Source: Planktothrix serta PCC 8927 (GTDB lineage Bacteria > Cyanobacteriota > Cyanobacteriia > Cyanobacteriales > Microcoleaceae). From it: 34,046 bases of DNA. Under the pieces are notes generated by a model. It made no database searches and was not told the origin of the DNA. It saw only the letters and a program-made list of their open reading frames with translations. How positions within the stretch are numbered: position 1 is the first letter of the stretch; each line of letters starts with the position of its first letter. Made by a program: the position numbers and the translations under genes. This document shows, in pieces, positions 21,558 to 32,564 of the stretch. The stretch is from positions 1 through 34,046 of the forward strand of contig NZ_LR734825.1 of the NCBI RefSeq assembly GCF_900010725.2, given 5' to 3'.

Positions 21558-21580
21558 CGCCCCTCGTCCCCCGTCCCTCA
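21558..21580. repeat. CCCTCGT heptamer tract at the recombinase stop
   Basis: A short third copy of the heptamer family seen inside rep, here reaching the stop codon of the recombinase gene. Confidence 0.6.
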
Positions 21581-22537
21581 AACTAAATCATCTAATAAAT
21601 TTGTAATCTCTCCCTGAGCATTCTTGCGGTTATCATCATAAATCATCAAAGTATTCAGGTCATGGTGGCGGCTAAGTTTCTGAACACGGCGGACATCTCC
21701 ACCCGTAGCATCGAGGGCAGCGGTGATGGAACTGTGTCGAATCCGGTGCGGTGACATCGGTTTAGAAATACCCGCTTTCTGGGAAAACTCGCGCACCAGG
21801 TCATAGATACCCCATCCCCCCAGGCGATGCCCTTTGGTACAGGGGTCAAGGGTACAGAATAACGGTGCAGTTTTCCTAACTCGTCCCCTAGCCTGTAGCC
21901 AATCCTGAATCGCTTCTAGGGTAGCCAAACCTAACTCAATTTTCTCCTTCTCGGTGCCGCGACCCTTACCGTGTATCCACAGACAACGGTTATCAACATC
22001 CAAGTCCGCAACATTGGCATTAGAAATTTCACCCCGTCGCAACGCATTTGACCAGAGCAGCCGGAAGATGGCGTAATCGCGTTTACCTTTGAGGGTAGAG
22101 CGATCGCACAATTCCAGAAGCGTTTTCATTTGGTCAGTGGGAATACCGGAAGTGTCAGTGTAGCGGCGGACTTTCTCGTTTTTGATATCAGCCAGAGTGA
22201 ATTTACAACGGCCAATGGTGCGGGCATAGTTAACTAAGGATTTAATCGCAGCAAGACGACGGTTAACGGTAGATTCTTTCAGACCCTTGTTAATTAAGTG
22301 TTGACGGTAGTTGAGAACCAGGGCCAGAGCATCAAACTGTTCTAAAGCTAGGAATTCCCTAACTAACTCCGGTGTCGGGTCACTATGGGCAATGAAACTA
22401 AAGAAATCTCGTAAATCCTTAGCATAGGCTTGACGGGTTTCGATACTGCGCTTATTGGCGAGTAAATCTCCCAAAATGTCAGAATTCGCTGAAAGATTAC
22501 GGAAAAGTTTCTTACCTTTGGCAATGAGTCCAGACAT
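21578..22537 (-). CDS. Tyrosine recombinase/integrase
   Basis: A 319-residue tyrosine recombinase. The N-terminal SAM-like DNA-binding domain (about 25-120) contains TRQAYAKDLRDFF and NRRLAAIKSLVNYA. The catalytic domain has Arg I in ALRRGEIS, the lysine in HGKGRG, the H-x-x-R box PHRIRH, and the C-terminal H...Y in SRHHDLNTLMIYDD with Tyr as the nucleophile. It resembles XerC-type and cyanobacterial plasmid recombinases. Seven 12-bp repeats lie 12-105 bases upstream of its start, a likely arm-binding or regulatory site. It may resolve plasmid dimers or integrate the element. Confidence 0.9.
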   Translation of the reverse strand: MSGLIAKGKKLFRNLSANSDILGDLLANKRSIETRQAYAKDLRDFFSFIAHSDPTPELVREFLALEQFDALALVLNYRQHLINKGLKESTVNRRLAAIKSLVNYARTIGRCKFTLADIKNEKVRRYTDTSGIPTDQMKTLLELCDRSTLKGKRDYAIFRLLWSNALRRGEISNANVADLDVDNRCLWIHGKGRGTEKEKIELGLATLEAIQDWLQARGRVRKTAPLFCTLDPCTKGHRLGGWGIYDLVREFSQKAGISKPMSPHRIRHSSITAALDATGGDVRRVQKLSRHHDLNTLMIYDDNRKNAQGEITNLLDDLV

Positions 22538-24147: not shown

Positions 24148-26250
24148 ATGATTGCTCTCAATGTCCCCATAGCGACTTCTCAGCTTCTCCCTCGTATTTT
24201 AGTGGTGACTTCTTGCACTGGAGAAAAGCTCTACAGCCCAAAAAACCAGTTAACACTGGCAGATTTCCAAGATCCAGTTCGGCTCCAAAAGCGATCTGAA
24301 GAACTCTCGGCTTATCAAGTTCCAGCAAGGCAAATGTATACTGGAACCCAACATTTACAAGTGATGGAAGGGGTCGAGAAGTTACGACGCTCTTTTGGAA
24401 CTCAGGTGGTGAATGTTGTTATTGTTAGTGCTGGGTATGGCTTAATTTGGGAAAATCAAGAAATTGTCCCCTATGAAGTAACGTTTCAGAACATGAATAA
24501 TTCTGAAATTGATGAGTGGGCTAATACTTTAGAGATTCATACCCAATTAGAATCTACAATTTCCAATTATGACTTAGTGTTTTTCCTATTAGGAGCCAAC
24601 TATCTTCGTTCCCTTGCATTACCTTTTAAATCTAGATCTGATCAAACTTTTATTTTTTTAGCGTCTGGGAGTAGTCAGCAGTTTATTTCCGTACCAAATT
24701 CAAAAAAATTTATTTTACCGTTATCCAATGCAGAAGCTAAAAAATATAGCTATGGTTTAGTTGGCTTAAAAGGATTTTTATTTAAACAATTTGCTTTTAA
24801 AGTTGTTCATGATTCCAAATTGCTACAAACCGTTACTCATCAACCGGAAAGTTTGGGAAAAATTTTAGATACTCAACCTATACAACTTGAACTGCCTTTA
24901 AGCTTACCCAAAGTTTCCCCTCAACAGAAGCAGAAATCAAAAAAATCTAAGGGAAGATACTCAGATGGATTAATATCTATTCCTCATTTACCGCCTGCGC
25001 CTAATATTTCCTTGGGAATGCAATATTTTATTCCTGAATGGGATGATCGGGTAGATCCAAATTTTAATTTTAAAACAGATACTTTAACCCCGAAAAGAGA
25101 ACCCTATGAAGATTGGTATGCTCATCAAATTTATCCTCAACCTAACTATGATGGAATTTTAGTCTCTAAGGTTGTCGTAGATAAAAGCCGGAAAAAGAAA
25201 AACTATGTTGAAGAATTCGGAATTCATAAAGCTTTACGATATCAAGGAGAAATTTTAGGAGATTGCGGTGCTTTTGGTTATATTAAGGAAGAAAAACCTC
25301 CTTATAAAACAGAAGAAATTTTGGATTATTATACTGGCTTAGGTTTTAATTATGGTGTCAGTATAGATCACTTAATCGTAGGGGATTTTGCTAAACCTGG
25401 AAGTCGAGAGTTTCGATTTGGCTTAACCTTAGACAATGCTTTAGATTTTATTGAAAAATGCCGAGAACGAGGATACGAAAAATTTACCCCCATTGGTGCG
25501 GCTCAAGGATGGAGTCCTGAATCCTATGCTGAAGCGGTTAAAGAACTGATTAATATGGGTTATGAGTATATTGCTTTAGGGGGAATGGCTCGAACGCCTA
25601 GTCAAGATATTATAGATGTTTTAATTAAAATTCAACCTTATTTAAAATCAACAACACGGTTACATTTATTTGGTGTCGCTCGACTAGATGCAATCCCAGC
25701 ATTTCGCCATTTAGGTGTTACCAGCTTTGATTCCTCTGGCCCTTTAAGGAGTGCTTGGTTAGATCCTGATGCCAATTATCAAACTATAACAGGAAAAACC
25801 TATGCCGCAGTTCGGATTCCTCCTGTTGGTAAGAATGGTTTGCGTGTTAAGCAAGTTGTAGATGCTGGTATAGCAGAGCGGGAGGAGTTAAAAAAGTTAG
25901 AGCAAAACTCTCTCAATGCGATTCGAGAATATGACAAAGGTAGGTACTCTTTAGAAGAAACATTAGAGGTTTTATTAGCTTATGATTACCTGTTGGAACT
26001 TCCTCGAAATGGTAAAGTTAGTCCCGTTGCTGCGGAAAGACGACAACGCCAGCACGCTATAATGTATCGAGAACTTTTGGAAGATCAACCCTGGAAAAAA
26101 TGTGATTGTGTGATTTGTCAAGAACTAGGAGTTGAAGTAGCTATCTTTCGAGGAAATGATAGAAATCGCCGCCGAGGATTTCATAATACTTATGTTTTTT
26201 ATAAACGCTTTAAAGCATTAATCCAAAGCTTGCAGAACAAGTTAGATTAA
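24148..26250 (+). CDS. dpdA-like: DpdA-like TGT: DUF6884 plus transglycosylase domain
   Basis: A 700-residue protein. Residues 15-200 match a DUF6884-like domain (ILVVTSCTGEKLY, MYTGTQHLQVMEGV, IVSAGYGLIWENQ). Residues about 330-690 form a tRNA-guanine-transglycosylase-type TIM barrel: GDCGAFGY (D372, position of the TGT general base), GVSIDHLI (D407), YIALGG and SFDSSGPLRSAW (D528, position of the nucleophile). A zinc site C652-x-C654-x2-C657-x21-H679 is complete. This layout fits DpdA, the DNA-directed TGT paralogue that inserts preQ0 into DNA, rather than tRNA TGT. preQ0 would come from chromosomal queuosine genes; none is in the window. A second TGT-like gene follows 76 bases later. Confidence 0.8.
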   Translation: MIALNVPIATSQLLPRILVVTSCTGEKLYSPKNQLTLADFQDPVRLQKRSEELSAYQVPARQMYTGTQHLQVMEGVEKLRRSFGTQVVNVVIVSAGYGLIWENQEIVPYEVTFQNMNNSEIDEWANTLEIHTQLESTISNYDLVFFLLGANYLRSLALPFKSRSDQTFIFLASGSSQQFISVPNSKKFILPLSNAEAKKYSYGLVGLKGFLFKQFAFKVVHDSKLLQTVTHQPESLGKILDTQPIQLELPLSLPKVSPQQKQKSKKSKGRYSDGLISIPHLPPAPNISLGMQYFIPEWDDRVDPNFNFKTDTLTPKREPYEDWYAHQIYPQPNYDGILVSKVVVDKSRKKKNYVEEFGIHKALRYQGEILGDCGAFGYIKEEKPPYKTEEILDYYTGLGFNYGVSIDHLIVGDFAKPGSREFRFGLTLDNALDFIEKCRERGYEKFTPIGAAQGWSPESYAEAVKELINMGYEYIALGGMARTPSQDIIDVLIKIQPYLKSTTRLHLFGVARLDAIPAFRHLGVTSFDSSGPLRSAWLDPDANYQTITGKTYAAVRIPPVGKNGLRVKQVVDAGIAEREELKKLEQNSLNAIREYDKGRYSLEETLEVLLAYDYLLELPRNGKVSPVAAERRQRQHAIMYRELLEDQPWKKCDCVICQELGVEVAIFRGNDRNRRRGFHNTYVFYKRFKALIQSLQNKLD

Positions 26251-26326
26251 TTTTAAAATTATTGATTTAGGATATAATAAATTTATCGGAATATCCTGCT
26301 AACCGATAATGAATTTTATCTAAAAT

Positions 26327-27175
26327 ATGTTAATCACAGATGGTTTAGATAGAGAATTTTTACCTGTTTTTTCTCTCAATGACTTTCGATTGCTTAAAAG
26401 GTTAGATAATCTTGAAGGAAATTATGGGATTTTAGCTCCTATCTCTTGCTATCCCAAACTGTTACATCGAATTCGAGAGAGAGGCAAACCTTTTTTTATT
26501 GATAGTAATATTTTTAAGAATTATGAGTATCCTTGGTATCAACAGCTTCAATGTGAATTTAAACAGGGACGTTGGATTAGAGAATATCGGTTAGCCGATG
26601 AAAATCTATTACGTCAAAAAGTCAGAGATTATTTAGCAAAGTGTGATCAGTTTAGTCCTGATTATGTTTTTGCTCTCGATATTCTAGGTGAACCTTTATT
26701 GTCGCTTTATTTAGCTCGATTGAGTTGGGAAGAATATTGGCAAAAATCGAGAAGTTATAACTTAATTGGGGTTGTTCAAGTGGGATATTCTCTCTACAAT
26801 TGGGCAAAACCATTGATTCCGCAACTTGACTCGTTACCTCCCCATTACAACTCTCCTAAAAGCTTTCTAGGAACTTTAATCAGTGAATACCGTAACATAG
26901 GTTATCAACATATTGCTTTAGGGGGTCTATTAAAACTTGAAAAAACGATATCAACAGGTTTGAGATTTGGTTTATTACCCCATGAACTCGATGAACTTTT
27001 GAGTTGGAGCCGACCTAATTTTGTACTGGGAGGATTAGCTTTAGGTCGTGTAGAAGTCTTAAGAAAACACCGAGTTTGGGCTGATTCAACGGGTTGGTTA
27101 TGGTGGGATGCTCGTTATGAACCAGAAAGGTTTAGTCAGCGTAATGCTTTACAGGAAGTCTCGGCTTTTAACTAA
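26327..27175 (+). CDS. Short TGT/DpdA-like protein without zinc site
   Basis: A 282-residue protein that resembles the barrel of its neighbour. FFIDSNIF (D59), FALDILGE (D118), HIALGGLLK and HRVWADSTGWLWWD (D253) line up with D372, D407, YIALGGMA and D528 of the preceding gene. It lacks the DUF6884-like domain and the Cys3-His zinc site: its three cysteines are scattered. It may be a catalytic or base-binding partner of the larger TGT, or act on another deazaguanine substrate. Its stop overlaps the stop of the convergent DndB-like gene by 3 bases. Distant TGT assignment is inference from motif order and spacing. Confidence 0.65.
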   Translation: MLITDGLDREFLPVFSLNDFRLLKRLDNLEGNYGILAPISCYPKLLHRIRERGKPFFIDSNIFKNYEYPWYQQLQCEFKQGRWIREYRLADENLLRQKVRDYLAKCDQFSPDYVFALDILGEPLLSLYLARLSWEEYWQKSRSYNLIGVVQVGYSLYNWAKPLIPQLDSLPPHYNSPKSFLGTLISEYRNIGYQHIALGGLLKLEKTISTGLRFGLLPHELDELLSWSRPNFVLGGLALGRVEVLRKHRVWADSTGWLWWDARYEPERFSQRNALQEVSAFN

Positions 27176-28257
27176 ACTGAAATAGGCACTAAACCCACAA
27201 ACTCGCATAGAATTTTATGGCAAGCACTGATAGTAGTTTTGGTATTGGAAATAATGGGTTCTCCGCTACCTCCAATACTGGTAACACCTCGTTCATGCCA
27301 TAACTGATTATTTTTCTGCCAATCAATTTCCCGTAATCGACTTAACCATTTAATTAGTTCCTCACTCGGTACATTTTCTTTATAAAGATCATGAGCTAAC
27401 ATTCCCAAAGCTTGGAACACAACTGCCGATACTGCTAATGACTCCTGTTTTGTTTCAAAGCGCTCTTCTGGGTTTTGAGGTCTCCAAGGATCATCAGGAA
27501 GAATTGAGGCAACTCCTGCCCAAAATGTTGCCGTCCAATCCATTAAAGGTTCTAAATTATCCTTAGATTTAAGATGAGGAAATGTATATTGAGTCGCCTT
27601 GACTAAGGTTGAGAAAGTTAGCAATTTAGAACTTTTTCCCAAGTTATTTTCCACCATTTCTACATTATTACGAAATTGGGGAACTCGCTCTAATAGATTT
27701 TTAGCAATTAAAACGAAAGGCGAGCGGCGATCAAAGGTATGGGACAGGGATACGCTAGGTCTTTGCACTAACAGGTTTTGATCACGAAATGCTTGCCGTT
27801 CATCTTCTAGGGACAGTCCCGCATACAATAAAACTCCTACCTCTAGTTGAGAAACAGGGGTAGGGTTTAGCAGGGGATGATCTTCAATCTCTTTGAGAGC
27901 CAGACGAATACCGAAGCATCGATGTTGACCGTCGGTGAGTCGCAGAGATACGGAATGGTAAGGAAGAGAGATATATCCATTCTGATAAACAGGTGCAGGT
28001 TGGACATTAACGCAAATCGGCGGGAAAAATGTTGTGCCATCTTCATAAGTTTCCAAAATGTATTGAGCGATCGCTTTAACACGGGTTGGGTTCAGTTTCC
28101 GTTGAGCTAAGTCCGGTAAATCAGGATCATTGGGGACATAAAGATGGTTGTCATTCAGTAACCGGGCAATATCGCCAAACGTTAGCGTCCCTACATAACT
28201 TTGATGCTCCTCTTTTGACCCACGCTGCACAGGAACAGCCTTCATCACAAGCTCCAT
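27172..28257 (-). CDS. dndB-like: DndB-like DGQHR-domain protein
   Basis: A 361-residue protein. The ATG at 28257 with GAGGA upstream is preferred over in-frame starts farther out that would lie on the promoter. LRLTDGQHRCFGI at 105-117 is the signature DGQHR motif shared by DndB and related proteins, and FRDQNLLVQRPS the downstream block. DndB regulates phosphorothioate DNA modification, and a DndB-like protein (DpdB) belongs to 7-deazaguanine modification clusters. No dndACDE genes are present, which favours the second context given the TGT-like genes. It is divergent from the small regulator and downstream helicase-nuclease genes. Confidence 0.8.
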   Translation of the reverse strand: MELVMKAVPVQRGSKEEHQSYVGTLTFGDIARLLNDNHLYVPNDPDLPDLAQRKLNPTRVKAIAQYILETYEDGTTFFPPICVNVQPAPVYQNGYISLPYHSVSLRLTDGQHRCFGIRLALKEIEDHPLLNPTPVSQLEVGVLLYAGLSLEDERQAFRDQNLLVQRPSVSLSHTFDRRSPFVLIAKNLLERVPQFRNNVEMVENNLGKSSKLLTFSTLVKATQYTFPHLKSKDNLEPLMDWTATFWAGVASILPDDPWRPQNPEERFETKQESLAVSAVVFQALGMLAHDLYKENVPSEELIKWLSRLREIDWQKNNQLWHERGVTSIGGSGEPIISNTKTTISACHKILCEFVGLVPISV

Positions 28258-28299
28258 AATTAATTCCTCGTTTTGCAAAGGTAAACCACATAGCTTGTA

Positions 28300-28337
28300 A
28301 CCATGTATACATGGTGGCAAGTATCCTGTCAAGACCA
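28300..28337 (-). promoter_or_regulatory. Promoter with a perfect 16-bp palindrome upstream of the DndB-like gene
   Basis: On the minus strand TTGACA (28328-28333) and TATACA are separated by about 17 bases, close to the sigma-70 consensus. The -10 lies inside ACCATGTATACATGGT (28300-28315), a perfect 16-bp palindrome in the gap between the divergent DndB-like and regulator genes. A dimeric repressor bound there would block RNA polymerase; the adjacent small gene is a candidate. Confidence 0.65.
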
Positions 28338-28377
28338 CTAAAATACAAAGGTTATTTATTGATAGAAGGAATAAGCT

Positions 28378-28620
28378 TTGCCTTCAACAGTTCGTGTTCC
28401 AGTTGACCTTTACGAAGATCTTCGCCAAATCCGACTTTCACTCGAAAGCAAATATCATGGTGCTGCACCTACTATACAAGACCTAGTTAGTGTTGCTATG
28501 AGGCGTTTTATATTGGATTGGAAAAATCCTGATATTAAAAGTGAACTGCTAACAGAATTATTAGAAAGCCGTAAAGTAGCTCGTTCTCAAATGGGAAATA
28601 AAAAAGAGGAAACGAGCTAA
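28378..28620 (+). CDS. Small regulator, possibly ribbon-helix-helix type
   Basis: An 80-residue protein starting at TTG with AGAAGGA at good spacing; no ATG is available in the right position. STVRVPVDLYEDLRQIRLSL resembles the beta strand and first helix of an RHH/CopG protein, and PTIQDLVSVAMRRFILDW the second helix. The tail is charged (ESRKVARSQMGNKKEE). It is divergent from the DndB-like gene across a 16-bp palindrome, and 104 bases upstream of the helicase. I infer autoregulation of the module; fold assignment is from pattern only. Confidence 0.65.
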   Translation: MPSTVRVPVDLYEDLRQIRLSLESKYHGAAPTIQDLVSVAMRRFILDWKNPDIKSELLTELLESRKVARSQMGNKKEETS

Positions 28621-28724
28621 ATTTTTATTCTAACAAAAGTGGCTACAAAATAATCTTGTAGTTAATTGATTAAAGAAATCTTTTAATAAATTCCACCCAG
28701 TATCATAACCAGGCTAATTCAATC

Positions 28725-31133
28725 ATGCCACTGACTTACAATGATTTTCGAGTTTGTGTTCAAGCTTCCGTAACTAAATTTACGCAAGGATGGTTGAATA
28801 ATGAACAGAATGATGCAGTTATAGCGCCACCATCACCACCAGTATTTATTGTCGCTGGGCCAGGTACAGGAAAAACTACTGTATTAGCTCTACGGGTACT
28901 CAAACATATCTTTGTTGATGGGTTTTCGCCTAATAGTATTATGGCAACAACGTTTACAAAGAAAGCTGCATCAGAATTGCGATCGCGTATTTTGTCATGG
29001 GGAGTAGCAACTCAACAAGAAGCGATACGCCAAGCTCAAACTAATGGGAATTCGCAGAGAGCCCAATGGCTCCGGTCTCTTGATATTAATCAGGTAAAAA
29101 CTGGAACTCTGGATTCTTTAGCTGAAGAAATGATAACTGATGATCGCCGTCCTGGTGAAATTACACCTACTGTAATTGAAAGCTTTATGGCAAAAGGATT
29201 GTTGCGAAAGAATGTAATGTTCTTAAGGGGACGACATAATAACAATACATTAACAACACACTTAAACAACTTTAACAATCAATATTTTGGTATTAACTCT
29301 TTGAGTAGTAAGCTCAAAGTTTGCCATTCGTTTGCAGATAGAGTCTTACATGATGCCGTAGATATTAATAGTTATTCAACCCAAGGTCAAGGACATCAAA
29401 TACTTGCAGATATTGTAAATGATTATCACAATTATCTCATAACTCATCAGCTTATGGATTTTGCTCTTCTTGAGCAAGAAATACTTAATCGTCTTCAAGG
29501 AAGAAGATTACAGTCAACAACGCAAAATCTAAGGGCATTATTAGTTGATGAGTTTCAAGATACCAACTATCTTCAAGAGCAAATCTACTATCTCCTATGT
29601 CAAAACTCCGATGCAGCCCTTACAGTAGTAGGAGATGATGATCAATCCATTTATCGTTTTCGAGGAGCTACGGTTGAGATTTGCGCTAATTTTTCTAATC
29701 GAATCCAAACGGTTTTAGGAACTCAATGGAACCCGATCCGAATCAACTTAATTAATAATTATCGTTCCACTGAAAGAATTGTTGAATTATTCAATCACTT
29801 TATTGCAGCAGATCCAAATTTTCAAGGCGCACGTGTTCCCAATAAACAAGCTTGTATTGCTTCTGCTAATTGGGTTAGTAACCCAAGCCAGAATATTCCA
29901 GTTTTAGGAATTTTTCGCAAAGACGTACAAATACTGGCTAATGTTATTAGTACACTATTAAATGATATTTTTCGTGATAATGGAAGAACTATAACTATCT
30001 CAGGAAATCAACAATTTACTATTCAATGTAATTCTAATGGTGGTGATTTTGGAGATGCAGTTTTATTAGCTGGTAAAGTACAGGAAACAAAATATAATGG
30101 AAATCCACGTTTACCTTTACTGATTCGTCAACAGCTTCGGAATTCTGGGGTAGATGTATTTAACCCTAGAGGTCGTGATTTTGCTACTATTCCAGAAGTT
30201 ATGCAATGTCTTGGAATTATGCTTGAGTGCATTGATCCTAATGGAAGACTTCAAAACTCAATTACAAGTATCAAACAAGGAACTAGAAATACCCTGAACA
30301 ATTGGCGAACTGCTGGGATACAATTTGCTCAATCTAATCCAGTACCTAATCAACCTAATACTAACAGCCTTCAACAATTTCTTGCTGACTGGGCTAATCG
30401 AAACGCACCAAATATGAGTCGCTGGCCTAGTGAATGGCCTTTGTTAGAATTGTTATTTACGGTTGTTACTTGGTTTCCTCTTTTTCAAAGAAGCCCAGAA
30501 GGGCAAATTTATGTTGAAACTATCGCTCGTACAATTGTTGAAGCTAGTCAAGTCTCTAAATATCGATCTGCAATTTTATCAGGTACAAATTATGATGATA
30601 ATTCTGTTAAAGATGCAATTAGAGAAGTTTTTGAACCAATTGCTGAAGGGGATGTAGATGTAGATGAAGAAATTATGCCCTACGTTCCTAGATCTGTTTT
30701 TCCAATTATGACGATTCACCAAGCTAAAGGATTAGAATTTCCTTTAGTAATTGTTGATGTTGGTAGTGATTTTGCCACAAACCATAAAGAACAAAGATAT
30801 GTTCGTTTTCCTGACCAAACTTCTGATTTACATCTTACAGAGGATGAAATCGCTAATTTTTCCCCTGTAGGCCAAGCCAGATTACAACGAACAGGAATCG
30901 ATAGAGCTTTTGATGATCTTACAAGACAGTATTTTGTTGCTAAGAGCCGACCTCAAAATATTTTGATTCTTGTTGGATTAAGAACTCAATTGACATCGAG
31001 ACCAAAACAAAATTCTTATCAAGTCCCATCCGTTGCTACAGGGGATCTAAGGAACGGTGGACGTACATATCAATTCATAGATGCTGTCAATTGGACACCT
31101 AATCATCCAGCTAATACCATTATATTAATTTAG
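28725..31133 (+). CDS. UvrD/Rep-type superfamily 1 helicase
   Basis: An 802-residue SF1A helicase with all main motifs: Walker A AGPGTGKT (G45-T51), TFTKKAASEL, DEFQDT (D275-T280), VVGDDDQSIYRFRGA, NYRSTERI, IMTIHQAKGLEFPLVIVD and FVAKSRPQNILIL. In the last motif the usual YVA-x-TR reads YFVAKSRPQ, with the key Arg retained. Such enzymes unwind DNA 3' to 5' with ATP. It is followed after 9 bases by the Fe-S nuclease gene, whose ribosome binding site overlaps the helicase stop, so the two are probably a helicase-nuclease pair like AddA/AddB in organisation. Here it lacks an AddA-type nuclease domain. Confidence 0.92.
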   Translation: MPLTYNDFRVCVQASVTKFTQGWLNNEQNDAVIAPPSPPVFIVAGPGTGKTTVLALRVLKHIFVDGFSPNSIMATTFTKKAASELRSRILSWGVATQQEAIRQAQTNGNSQRAQWLRSLDINQVKTGTLDSLAEEMITDDRRPGEITPTVIESFMAKGLLRKNVMFLRGRHNNNTLTTHLNNFNNQYFGINSLSSKLKVCHSFADRVLHDAVDINSYSTQGQGHQILADIVNDYHNYLITHQLMDFALLEQEILNRLQGRRLQSTTQNLRALLVDEFQDTNYLQEQIYYLLCQNSDAALTVVGDDDQSIYRFRGATVEICANFSNRIQTVLGTQWNPIRINLINNYRSTERIVELFNHFIAADPNFQGARVPNKQACIASANWVSNPSQNIPVLGIFRKDVQILANVISTLLNDIFRDNGRTITISGNQQFTIQCNSNGGDFGDAVLLAGKVQETKYNGNPRLPLLIRQQLRNSGVDVFNPRGRDFATIPEVMQCLGIMLECIDPNGRLQNSITSIKQGTRNTLNNWRTAGIQFAQSNPVPNQPNTNSLQQFLADWANRNAPNMSRWPSEWPLLELLFTVVTWFPLFQRSPEGQIYVETIARTIVEASQVSKYRSAILSGTNYDDNSVKDAIREVFEPIAEGDVDVDEEIMPYVPRSVFPIMTIHQAKGLEFPLVIVDVGSDFATNHKEQRYVRFPDQTSDLHLTEDEIANFSPVGQARLQRTGIDRAFDDLTRQYFVAKSRPQNILILVGLRTQLTSRPKQNSYQVPSVATGDLRNGGRTYQFIDAVNWTPNHPANTIILI

Positions 31134-31142
31134 GAGAATACT

Positions 31143-32360
31143 ATGCAACTTCCAAGCCGAGATCTTCCTTTTGAAGTCCCTAAATATAGCCTAACTGGAG
31201 ATGTTTTATCTTATCAAAGATGTGGACTACAATATCGTTACTATAATCGTAGTTCTCTTCCACCATCTCGTCCTGTTCAGCTTTGGACAGGTGAATTTGT
31301 ACATGGAATGATGGAAGAGATGTATCTTCATTGGCAGCAAAATCGTACCCCTTTTCCTTGGCCTTCTAATCAAACTCCTTGGGGGGGAAGCTTTTCCACT
31401 TCACCTAATCCCAATAGAGTTAATTATGATCTAGGTGTATTAGGAGATCAAGTAGAGGCTCGACTTAGAGCATCTGGCAAAACTCCACGAAATAGAGAGG
31501 CTAGAGATTCTGCATATCGTCGTGTTGAAGCAGCGATGAACTTACTTGTACCTCATTTATTTCCGCTTATCACTGCGGTAGAAGAAAAGTTGAGTAGTAC
31601 AAGGCTAATGCCTATTGCTGGCATTAATGCTCCCCCAGGACAACAACCTCGCGGTGATCGATATGAACTTACGGGGGTGGTTGATGTTATATCCAGTGTT
31701 TCATTAATTTCACAACAGGATAATCCATTAGTACAAATGATTAATAGTCAAATTCCAGGGCTATCTGGTCAATTTGATGTGATTGTAGATTACAAAGCAG
31801 CACGTCGCCCCCCAATGACACCACCTCCTAATAGCAAACCCTATTGGCAACATGAAGCTTGGCAAGTACAAACCTATGCTTGGCTTCGCGCCCAACAACC
31901 TAATACTAATCCTGTGAGGGCAGGAATACTAATCTATGTAAATGAATTATCTCCCTCTCAGACTGATTTAAACGAATTAAAGCGAGAAATTAACCAGGGA
32001 TTAACAGATATTTTCCCTAGTTCTGGTAGTGCTGACGATTACGCATTAGGTACTTGGCAATCAGGTTATGGTCAACCTCTTCCAAGTTTTACAAATAGTT
32101 TTCTATTACAAAGAGCAATCAGAATTGTTTCTGTTGACCATACAGAAATTAATCAAGCAGTTACCGAAATAGACAATGTAATTGCTCGAATAGAAGGATG
32201 CGCTCTACATGAAAATGTGACAGGAAATATTCCTAATAATTGGAATGCTGATGGTGGTGATGGTGACTGCGATGCCTGCGATTTCCGTCGATTTTGTCCG
32301 AGTCCAGCATCAACTCGTCAAACGGGGCAACCTCCTCGCCCACCAGTTGCTCCTGGTTAA
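31143..32360 (+). CDS. Cas4/AddB-type Fe-S PD-(D/E)XK nuclease
   Basis: A 405-residue nuclease. The N-terminus has RCGLQYRYY (C27) and GEFVHGMMEEM (H54). The catalytic core has GVVDVIS (D181) and VIVDYKAARR (D216, K218), followed by the RecB-type WQVQTYAWL motif. The C-terminus has CDACDFRRFC (C376, C379, C385). With C27 these form the four-cysteine arrangement that binds a 4Fe-4S cluster in Cas4 and AddB nucleases. An AGGAGA ribosome binding site overlaps the helicase stop. It probably acts with the helicase on DNA, and I infer a role as effector or processing nuclease of the module with the TGT-like genes. Confidence 0.88.
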   Translation: MQLPSRDLPFEVPKYSLTGDVLSYQRCGLQYRYYNRSSLPPSRPVQLWTGEFVHGMMEEMYLHWQQNRTPFPWPSNQTPWGGSFSTSPNPNRVNYDLGVLGDQVEARLRASGKTPRNREARDSAYRRVEAAMNLLVPHLFPLITAVEEKLSSTRLMPIAGINAPPGQQPRGDRYELTGVVDVISSVSLISQQDNPLVQMINSQIPGLSGQFDVIVDYKAARRPPMTPPPNSKPYWQHEAWQVQTYAWLRAQQPNTNPVRAGILIYVNELSPSQTDLNELKREINQGLTDIFPSSGSADDYALGTWQSGYGQPLPSFTNSFLLQRAIRIVSVDHTEINQAVTEIDNVIARIEGCALHENVTGNIPNNWNADGGDGDCDACDFRRFCPSPASTRQTGQPPRPPVAPG

Positions 32361-32399
32361 TTATTGACTTTTATTGAGTTAAAATTGGGGTAAAAGCAA

Positions 32400-32564
32400 A
32401 TGTCTTGGGAAAACCTTGAAAACATACTTAGTCTGTTACTTACTGAATTAAACCAGCAAAATTCCGTACAATCTCCCCAAGAGATTTGGGATTCCTATCA
32501 AAGTCAAATTCAATCTCTTATCGGTGAACACCCTCAAGAATTTGTTACCTTGTTAATTCACTAA
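32400..32564 (+). pseudogene. Small ORF with a possible in-frame nonsense codon
   Basis: A 54-codon frame (MSWENLENILSLLLTELNQQ start, ending FVTLLIH) begins 39 bases after the nuclease gene, with GGGG about 11 bases before the ATG. After the TAA at 32562 the same frame continues for 23 codons (LQTVTLTFEMWASDNGKNH) to a second stop at 32634. The helical pattern carries on across the TAA, which could be a CAA to TAA change. Family not recognised. It may be a short accessory subunit or a decayed gene. Confidence 0.4.

Follow-up and report, generated by a model that had tools for sequence, protein, structure and literature searches.

The closest described relatives of the locus analyzed here are the Dpd islands, comprising dpdA to dpdK. 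In the available part of PMC11888242, DUF6884 is named as a DpdC domain and islands are described that can be without restriction genes, while the available part of PMC12839542 has DpdC hydrolyzing dPreQ0 to dADG. We analyzed a stretch of 34,046 nucleotides (nt) from the cyanobacterium Planktothrix serta PCC 8927 (contig NZ_LR734825.1, forward strand; hereafter, the window, meaning this whole stretch), which is a complete contig, C6, within a genome of 6.27 Mb. Its similarities indicate that this plasmid-like contig probably encodes a Dpd-type system for DNA modification and restriction, combining a DpdC-DpdA fusion, a second protein resembling tRNA-guanine transglycosylases (TGTs), and an effector resembling a RecB enzyme split between two polypeptides. 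Its predicted departures from the published Dpd islands are three: the fusion itself, the second TGT-like protein, which bears no family name, and the split-RecB-like pair, relatives of which also stand beside DISARM-type genes. Six intact open frames lie between 24148 and 32360 (8.2 kb), with the following features.

24148-26250, + strand: dpdA, an apparent DpdC-DpdA fusion of 700 amino acids (aa); residues ~16-230 are DUF6884/DpdC-like and residues ~281-695 resemble DNA-guanine transglycosylase, with zinc-type residues
26327-27175, + strand: T2, the second TGT-like protein, 282 aa, without a zinc-type cysteine cluster and without a known family
27172-28338, - strand: B, a DGQHR/DndB-like protein (PF14072, TIGR03187); start probably near 28257
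28300-28315, no strand: perfect 16-bp palindrome ACCATGTATACATGGT, a candidate operator between the divergent B and small-protein genes
28378-28620, + strand: small protein, 80 aa, a candidate DNA-binding regulator; ribbon-helix-helix by eye only, no accepted family
28725-31133, + strand: Hel, a UvrD/PcrA-type superfamily 1 (SF1) helicase, 802 aa (PF00580, E 2.2e-49)
31143-32360, + strand: Nuc, a RecB/Cas4-like PD-(D/E)XK nuclease (PF12705, 42.9 bits), with one N-terminal and three C-terminal conserved cysteines

The initial annotation, made from the sequence without database searches, had placed this cluster at 24148 to 32564; all six genes are where it put them, but the end moves to 32360. 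It had recognized a Dpd-type locus with two TGT-like proteins, which is borne out by DpdA models, a solved structure and a T2-DpdA profile alignment (see below), and an SF1 helicase with a Cas4/AddB-type nuclease, with which the PF00580 match and the PF12705 match combined with the conserved cysteines agree. It had also read DpdA as carrying complete aspartate and zinc-type residues, and these prove invariant; its reading of dpdA as a plain TGT was incomplete, as the fused N-terminal domain had been overlooked.

A DpdC-DpdA fusion protein

The dpdA product exceeds the cut-off of NCBIfam NF041059 (464.5 bits; cut-off, 200) and matches the PADLOC DpdA model (E 1.8e-124), and a profile of eight homologs finds the DNA-guanine transglycosylase 7ui4_A as its best solved relative (E 2.9e-112). 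Residues D372, D407, D528, C652, C654, C657 and H679 are invariant in all eight aligned DpdA proteins, and we presume for these aspartates, cysteines and histidine the roles that they have in TGT enzymes. Residues 55-167 match DUF6884 (48.2 bits; Pfam cut-off, 30), and residues 16-123 match the PADLOC DpdC model (E 9.8e-10). As DUF6884 is a domain named for DpdC, DpdC and DpdA therefore appear to be fused in this product. Two observations in other loci agree with this: Symploca (locus L009) has an unfused DpdA with a free DpdC-like gene ahead of it (DpdC E 6.1e-8), and Halobaculum (L067), a haloarchaeon, carries the fusion in the opposite order (DpdC E 1e-7). That DpdA or T2 might be the genome's tRNA TGT was rejected, because the latter is encoded elsewhere, by a PF01702 gene on contig C59 (513.7 bits).

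A second TGT-like protein

T2 reaches the cut-off of no Pfam, NCBIfam or PHROG family. Profile comparison with hhalign, however, aligned 14 T2 proteins with 10 DpdA proteins at Prob 93.5 (score 59.2), against scores of at most 28.2 in 50 column shuffles and 21.6 with a reversed alignment, and with a mixed TGT set at Prob 92.9. When a T2 model was run against all open frames, DpdA proteins ranked next after T2 itself, weakly (best E 0.0012). In the hhalign alignment, D59, Q151, G199-G200 and D253 of T2 fall on D372, Q453, G478-G479 and D528 of DpdA, while D118 was placed opposite DpdA D407 by eye; all of these T2 residues are invariant in nine of nine aligned T2 proteins. C106 is the sole invariant cysteine of T2, which therefore is without the zinc-type cluster. 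By profile comparison, then, T2 is predicted to be TGT-like. We found no relative of it in the viral-contig scan (13 stretches matched the search pattern, none holding a relative), no match in the phage collection, and none among solved structures at E up to 1. In the open-access literature, whose coverage excludes the main Dpd papers, we found no description of T2 or of a UvrD and PD-(D/E)XK pair with Dpd.

Co-occurrence of T2 and DpdA

Co-occurrence of the genes across cyanobacterial genomes and plasmids had been set beforehand as a test of the proposed system, and it was found: after removal of overlaps (L014 = G183 and L016 = G352, where L codes denote loci and G codes genomes), there are 14 distinct full-length T2 loci, with DpdA within the same locus in 13 and on the same island in the last. 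The T2 start lies at most 80 bases from the dpdA end in 10 of the 14, and in L009 the genes overlap by 4 bases. Within 386 sampled cyanobacterial genomes, T2 is present in six (full length in five, a 27-residue remnant in one) and DpdA over the cut-off in six, with weaker matches in five more; the two occur together in five genomes spread over five families (Fisher p 9e-11, relatedness ignored). The sixth DpdA genome, G197, is without T2, and its dpdA is split into two frames with the C-terminal part missing. The tRNA TGT is present in all six genomes searched, with or without T2. A scan of the genomes of 84,980 species, which requires short exact peptides and would miss distant relatives, gave 32 pattern matches and from these 10 T2 loci (eight full length and two remnants), all cyanobacterial by title. 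Two of 72,556 plasmid records add T2 loci, the Allocoleopsis plasmid (L033) and the Scytonema plasmid (L034). DpdA matches occur in 25 of these plasmid records, of which 14 were examined with their flanks and 11 left out. Two Microcoleus-type loci (L015 and L016) keep a C-terminal T2 remnant directly ahead of DpdE, with dpdA absent from the stretch; DpdE and DpdF remain in both and G and H in L016, where DpdE and DpdF are partly deleted and joined. Further correspondences used below are L014, Myxacorys; L017 = G101; L019 = G027; L061 = G105; L063 = G374; and L114 = G078.

preQ0 genes and known effectors around the same core

The genes queD-queE-queC stand next to dpdA in L013, L014 and L060 (queE and queC are broken in L014), and queD stands beside the core in L017 and in L033 (pMIC7113.07), with a partial queD in L034. 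DpdE-F-G-H adjoin the core in L008, L011, L018 and L060 (H is cut by the stretch end in the first three), and DpdJ does so in L009, L010, L013, L014, L017, L033 and L034, followed by DpdK in L010, L017, L034 and L115; in L013, a HerA-type gene and a partner of no known family lie between the small gene and DpdJ. With preQ0 genes and known Dpd effectors thus beside the same core in relatives, the system is therefore read as Dpd-type. The P. serta genome itself, searched for QueC among the preQ0 genes, encodes it on contig C49 (260.1 bits), a gene found in all eight genomes searched, this one included, and hence not specific. Our PADLOC scans covered nine window proteins, among which none matched the dpdD-K restriction genes. 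A genome-wide effector search limited to DpdE and DpdJ, with F, G, H and K not searched, gave weak helicase-type matches (82.1 bits for DpdE and 26.7 bits for DpdJ), and control genomes match too.

Two further neighborhoods may be recorded. L114 holds the DGQHR gene, the small gene, DpdJ, DpdK and a tetratricopeptide-repeat gene near a contig end, that is, effectors without the marking enzyme. On the Scytonema plasmid, a DrmD-type helicase (L034:2-3112; PADLOC DrmD, 1100 bits) is encoded ~7 kb upstream of dpdA, so that a DISARM-type gene neighbors this Dpd island.

The DGQHR protein, the small protein and the palindrome

B passes PF14072 DndB (270.1 bits) and TIGR03187 (120.8 bits) and also matches the DndB equivalog model, below its cut-off. 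It had been annotated as a DndB-like protein, against the background of the DndB-like DpdB of known dpd clusters; the DndB likeness stands, but its likeness to the plasmid proteins named DpdB by NCBI is distant only (hhalign Prob 5). No model named DpdB, after the DGQHR, ParB-like ATPase of Dpd systems, matched it, the presence of such a model in the libraries being inferred from the NCBI naming of plasmid proteins. The start near 28257 is the probable one, as relatives begin there. Some B match is found in 37 of the 386 genomes. Full-length orthologs of 61-73% identity are found in six genomes besides the window, and fragments of 67-72% identity in G288 and G189; all other matches that cover at least 200 residues are at most 30% identical. 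The genomes with full-length B, window included, are all six DpdA genomes and G078. The small gene is conserved and adjoins B in most loci; its product matches no accepted family in the Pfam, PADLOC and NCBIfam scans. The palindrome ACCATGTATACATGGT is the window's sole site when as many as three mismatches are allowed, where 0.13 is expected and 12 of 100 shuffles hold at least one. Its core, ATACATGG, lies between the B and small genes in 13 of 16 stretches scanned (the window, L007, L009-L014, L017, L033, L034, L061 and L114; none in L019, L116 or L062). Scytonema has a second copy of the core just ahead of dpdJ (L034:17724), between the Hel-Nuc pair and dpdJ, and in L114 a stray match lies inside dpdJ.

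The helicase-nuclease pair

Hel matches GajB-type models (best E 7.4e-36, PADLOC). In Nuc, the GxxD, DYK and QxxxY motifs and the cysteines are kept in all 11 usable rows of a 12-row alignment, the row left out being L063, whose complete 335-aa frame is L063:9869-10876; the cysteine arrangement we take to be the iron-sulfur pattern of RecB, AddB and Cas4. The pair is found in 7 of the 14 core loci (the window, L007, L012, L014, L019, L034 and L061), directly preceded by the small gene in all of these except L019, and the L007 contig terminates just past Nuc.

Two subfamilies can be distinguished. That of the window, with a nuclease of 388-405 aa where complete, is known from seven loci, each of which has DpdA either in the locus itself or on the island: the window, L007, L012, L019, Bradyrhizobium 41S5 (L064), Rhizobium WYJ-E13 (L065) and Picosynechococcus PCC 73109 (L066). 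The other is shorter (~335-360 aa), the window Hel and Nuc being 22-28% identical to it, and occurs in L014, L034, G105, Halobaculum (L067, where the frames are split and that of the nuclease is longer), Nostoc N6 (L068) and G374. Among the 386 genomes, the window Nuc is matched at full length in G000 and G027, both with DpdA, and by short matches in G105 and G374; the shorter Nuc is matched at full length in G105 and G183, both with DpdA, and in G374, and weakly in G303, G382 and G000. Among the 72,556 plasmid records, the window Nuc matches four, all within the 25 that have a DpdA match, the fourth (Halobaculum) at 27% over one third of the query. The window Hel at E 1e-30 finds five, four with DpdA and the fifth being Nostoc N6. 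The shorter Nuc, with the L034 protein as the query, finds ten, of which five reach E ≤1e-30 and four of those five have DpdA; the other five (Nitrosomonas, three records; Annamia; Peribacillus; 23-26%) are outside the DpdA list. The Allocoleopsis plasmid has no match to the pair. In Salinigranum and Natronococcus, the Nuc match lies tens of kb away from dpdA, inside a helicase-annotated gene; its position there suggests that helicase and nuclease are fused.

The initial annotation held that this pair replaces the usual Dpd effectors. This fits the window and the stretches of 33 and 29 kb that surround two dpdA genes of rhizobia, where the pair stands without known Dpd effectors, but not four other cyanobacterial islands, in which it accompanies DpdJ (L014/L115, L034, G105 and G027), in some cases with DpdK or DpdE-H as well. 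Replacement everywhere was accordingly rejected, the pairs of these islands being homologous; three of the four have the shorter subfamily.

Loci with other transglycosylase combinations

Among the loci scanned, four that encode fused DpdC-DpdA but no T2, namely those of Picosynechococcus (L066), Nostoc NIES-3756 (L069), Paenibacillus (L070) and Halobaculum (L067), have a small TGT of a different kind, of 307-315 aa where complete (the L067 copy is cut); Salinigranum (L089), with DpdA and a separate DpdC-like gene, likewise has a small TGT, of 344 aa. Seven unfused loci (L064, L065 and L084-L088) hold one TGT only in their stretches. No second TGT was seen in the available flanks of two viral contigs with fused DpdA (L090 and L091). 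These arrangements suggest, but do not prove, that the branch linked to DUF6884 employs two transglycosylases.

Several further observations concern these neighborhoods. The two viral contigs carry queC with the fusion, and L090 carries queD too. In L066 and L069, the small TGT comes after fused dpdA, between two DEAD/DEAH helicases, in what is apparently another Dpd-like arrangement. Myxacorys encodes a third TGT (L014:6737-7738; 334 aa, 32% identical to DpdA) besides dpdA and T2. Genes annotated as DNA polymerase IV lie near the dpd clusters of L064 and L070, with Ku in the former (Bradyrhizobium) and endonuclease V in the latter (Paenibacillus).

The contig

The left part of the window is similar to plasmids of Planktothrix agardhii that have a CyRepA1 replicon, the best record showing 84.9% identity over 23% of the 22 kb compared, and 16 of the 20 records that match it are from Planktothrix. 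We thus read the contig as plasmid-like, with a Planktothrix-type CyRepA1 replicon. A terminal overlap of 16-200 bases, sought as a sign of circularity, was not found, and Aragorn and Rfam scans of the window gave no match. Ahead of the cluster lies one further gene of note.

21578-22537, - strand: Xer-type tyrosine recombinase, with ~50% (49-51%) identical relatives near dpdA in L010, L011 and L069

Counting the window, there are thus four loci with this recombinase near dpdA (relatives at L010:5578-6555, L011:344-1345 and L069:3239-4207); it probably serves island mobility and stands outside the mechanism.

Proposed mechanism and alternatives

From homology, intact residues, synteny and the preQ0 genes of relatives, we propose the base made, the partner of T2, the regulation and the restriction as follows. 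preQ0 would be supplied by host genes elsewhere, and the DpdA part would swap guanine in DNA for it, as a mark of self; the N-terminal DpdC-like domain would probably then hydrolyze the nitrile to give dADG. T2, as a TGT without a zinc site, would most likely be a second subunit with DpdA, setting the choice of substrate or strand. The DGQHR protein may assist or regulate modification, and expression may be controlled through the small protein and the palindrome that separates the divergent genes. Hel and the RecB-like Nuc would work together as a RecB-type machine split in two, unwinding and degrading unmarked DNA. Going further, T2 could represent a new family of DNA-transglycosylase subunits, heteromeric with DpdC-DpdA, and the pair a portable split-RecB effector that senses the absence of whatever mark its partner system makes; this extension we offer tentatively, regarding it as doubtful in its full form.

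A number of observations pull the other way. As to the core, T2 lies ~35 kb from dpdA in G027, although on the same island; L066 and L069 have fused DpdA but neither T2 nor B; and the parts can exist apart, as in G078, where B, the small gene and DpdJ-K are present while DpdA and T2 have no match genome-wide. As to T2, accepted TGT models miss it, and the DpdA models match it weakly (E 0.045 and 0.079); hhalign finds no clear likeness when tRNA TGT is compared by itself (Prob 0.8) and a weak one to the other small TGTs (Prob 20); and the mixed TGT model at E 1e-3 recovers 2 of 14 T2 proteins, L008 (4e-4) and L018 (1e-3). The missing zinc-type cluster, the misses by accepted models and the hhalign results would suit a T2 that has retained the fold without being a DNA transglycosylase subunit, and that acts as a regulator, as a scaffold binding DNA or as an enzyme directed at tRNA. 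This alternative has some weight but is the less probable side of the question, as the TGT-like Asp, Gln and Gly-Gly residues are invariant in the nine aligned T2 proteins, and T2 tracks DpdA, whereas the tRNA TGT occurs regardless of T2.

The remaining points concern the pair. Seven of the 14 core loci show no Hel-Nuc within the fetched stretch, four of these stretches (L008, L009, L011 and L013) ending inside effector genes; the G101 genome has no Nuc match; and the L012 pair is broken by an in-frame deletion that joins Hel 1-756 to Nuc 338-405, the last 68 residues (L012:11398-13830). Moreover, the shorter pair in Nostoc N6 directly follows genes annotated as drmD, a methylase, a hypothetical protein, drmA, DUF1998 and drmC, and in G374, which is without DpdA, it adjoins a DrmMI-like methylase and an SNF2 helicase, which among PADLOC models scores best with one for DpdE (2e-207) and next with DrmD (7e-99). 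Hel-Nuc might then be an independent defense or repair module beside a dpd core that is a modification system whose effectors were lost. We consider this unlikely, given that the window subfamily keeps company with DpdA in all seven of its loci, in cyanobacteria and rhizobia alike, that the pair directly follows the small gene in six loci, and that in Scytonema the second palindrome core lies between the pair and dpdJ. Least probable is that the marking of plasmid DNA by the locus serves to escape host restriction or to maintain the plasmid, and not to defend against invaders: the CyRepA1 replicon of the window and the two T2 loci on plasmids agree with it, but relatives have Dpd restriction genes, the G027 island is on a 4.68-Mb contig, and the nuclease is retained with intact motifs.

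Comparison with known systems

A Dpd-type modification-restriction system remains the preferred reading, and the locus can be compared with several defense systems that share single components. Hel has GajB-type matches, as in Gabija, but there is no GajA among the nine window proteins scanned. ARMADA type II (available part of PMC12458937) likewise has a GajB-like UvrD helicase, ArmD, which differs in being fused to a RelE-like domain and accompanied by a PglX-like methylase; neither is found among the scanned window proteins. BRIGADE, the haloarchaeal Dpd-like system of the same source, shares predicted deazaguanine genes and sometimes a PD-(D/E)XK nuclease, but in the part available it usually has two YprA-like helicases and its reported occurrence is confined to halophilic archaea; no DpdJ-type helicase is present among the window proteins scanned, the YprA family not having been searched as such. 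The phage protein DpdA2 of Vibrio phage nt-1, reported in the available part of PMC6884629 to share the DNA function, is likewise a divergent TGT missed by ordinary DpdA searches; T2, likened to it by description with no direct sequence comparison, differs in having no relative in the phage collection. The locus exposes an unnamed TGT-like family tied to DpdA.

With DISARM (DrmA, DrmB and DrmC with a methylase) the window shares no Drm protein among the nine scanned, but the shorter relative of Hel-Nuc is present in one locus of the DISARM system (Nostoc N6) and in another that is DISARM-like (G374). Relatives of the pair would thus serve two marking systems of different chemistry, which bears on how marked DNA is told from unmarked DNA. 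The closest likeness is to the Dpd islands described in the available part of PMC11888242, with which the window shares a DpdA over the NCBIfam cut-off, a DpdC-like domain and a DGQHR protein and, through relatives in which they adjoin the same core, preQ0 genes and DpdE-H or DpdJ; it differs in the fused DpdC-DpdA, the additional T2, a B protein that is DndB-like, and the UvrD and PD-(D/E)XK pair. Known Dpd restriction employs many large proteins, and the window locus, with six genes in 8.2 kb, looks much smaller. The island of another cyanobacterium, Hydrococcus rivularis, described in the same part of PMC11888242 as without dpdC and without the restriction operon, may belong to the same class as the window locus.

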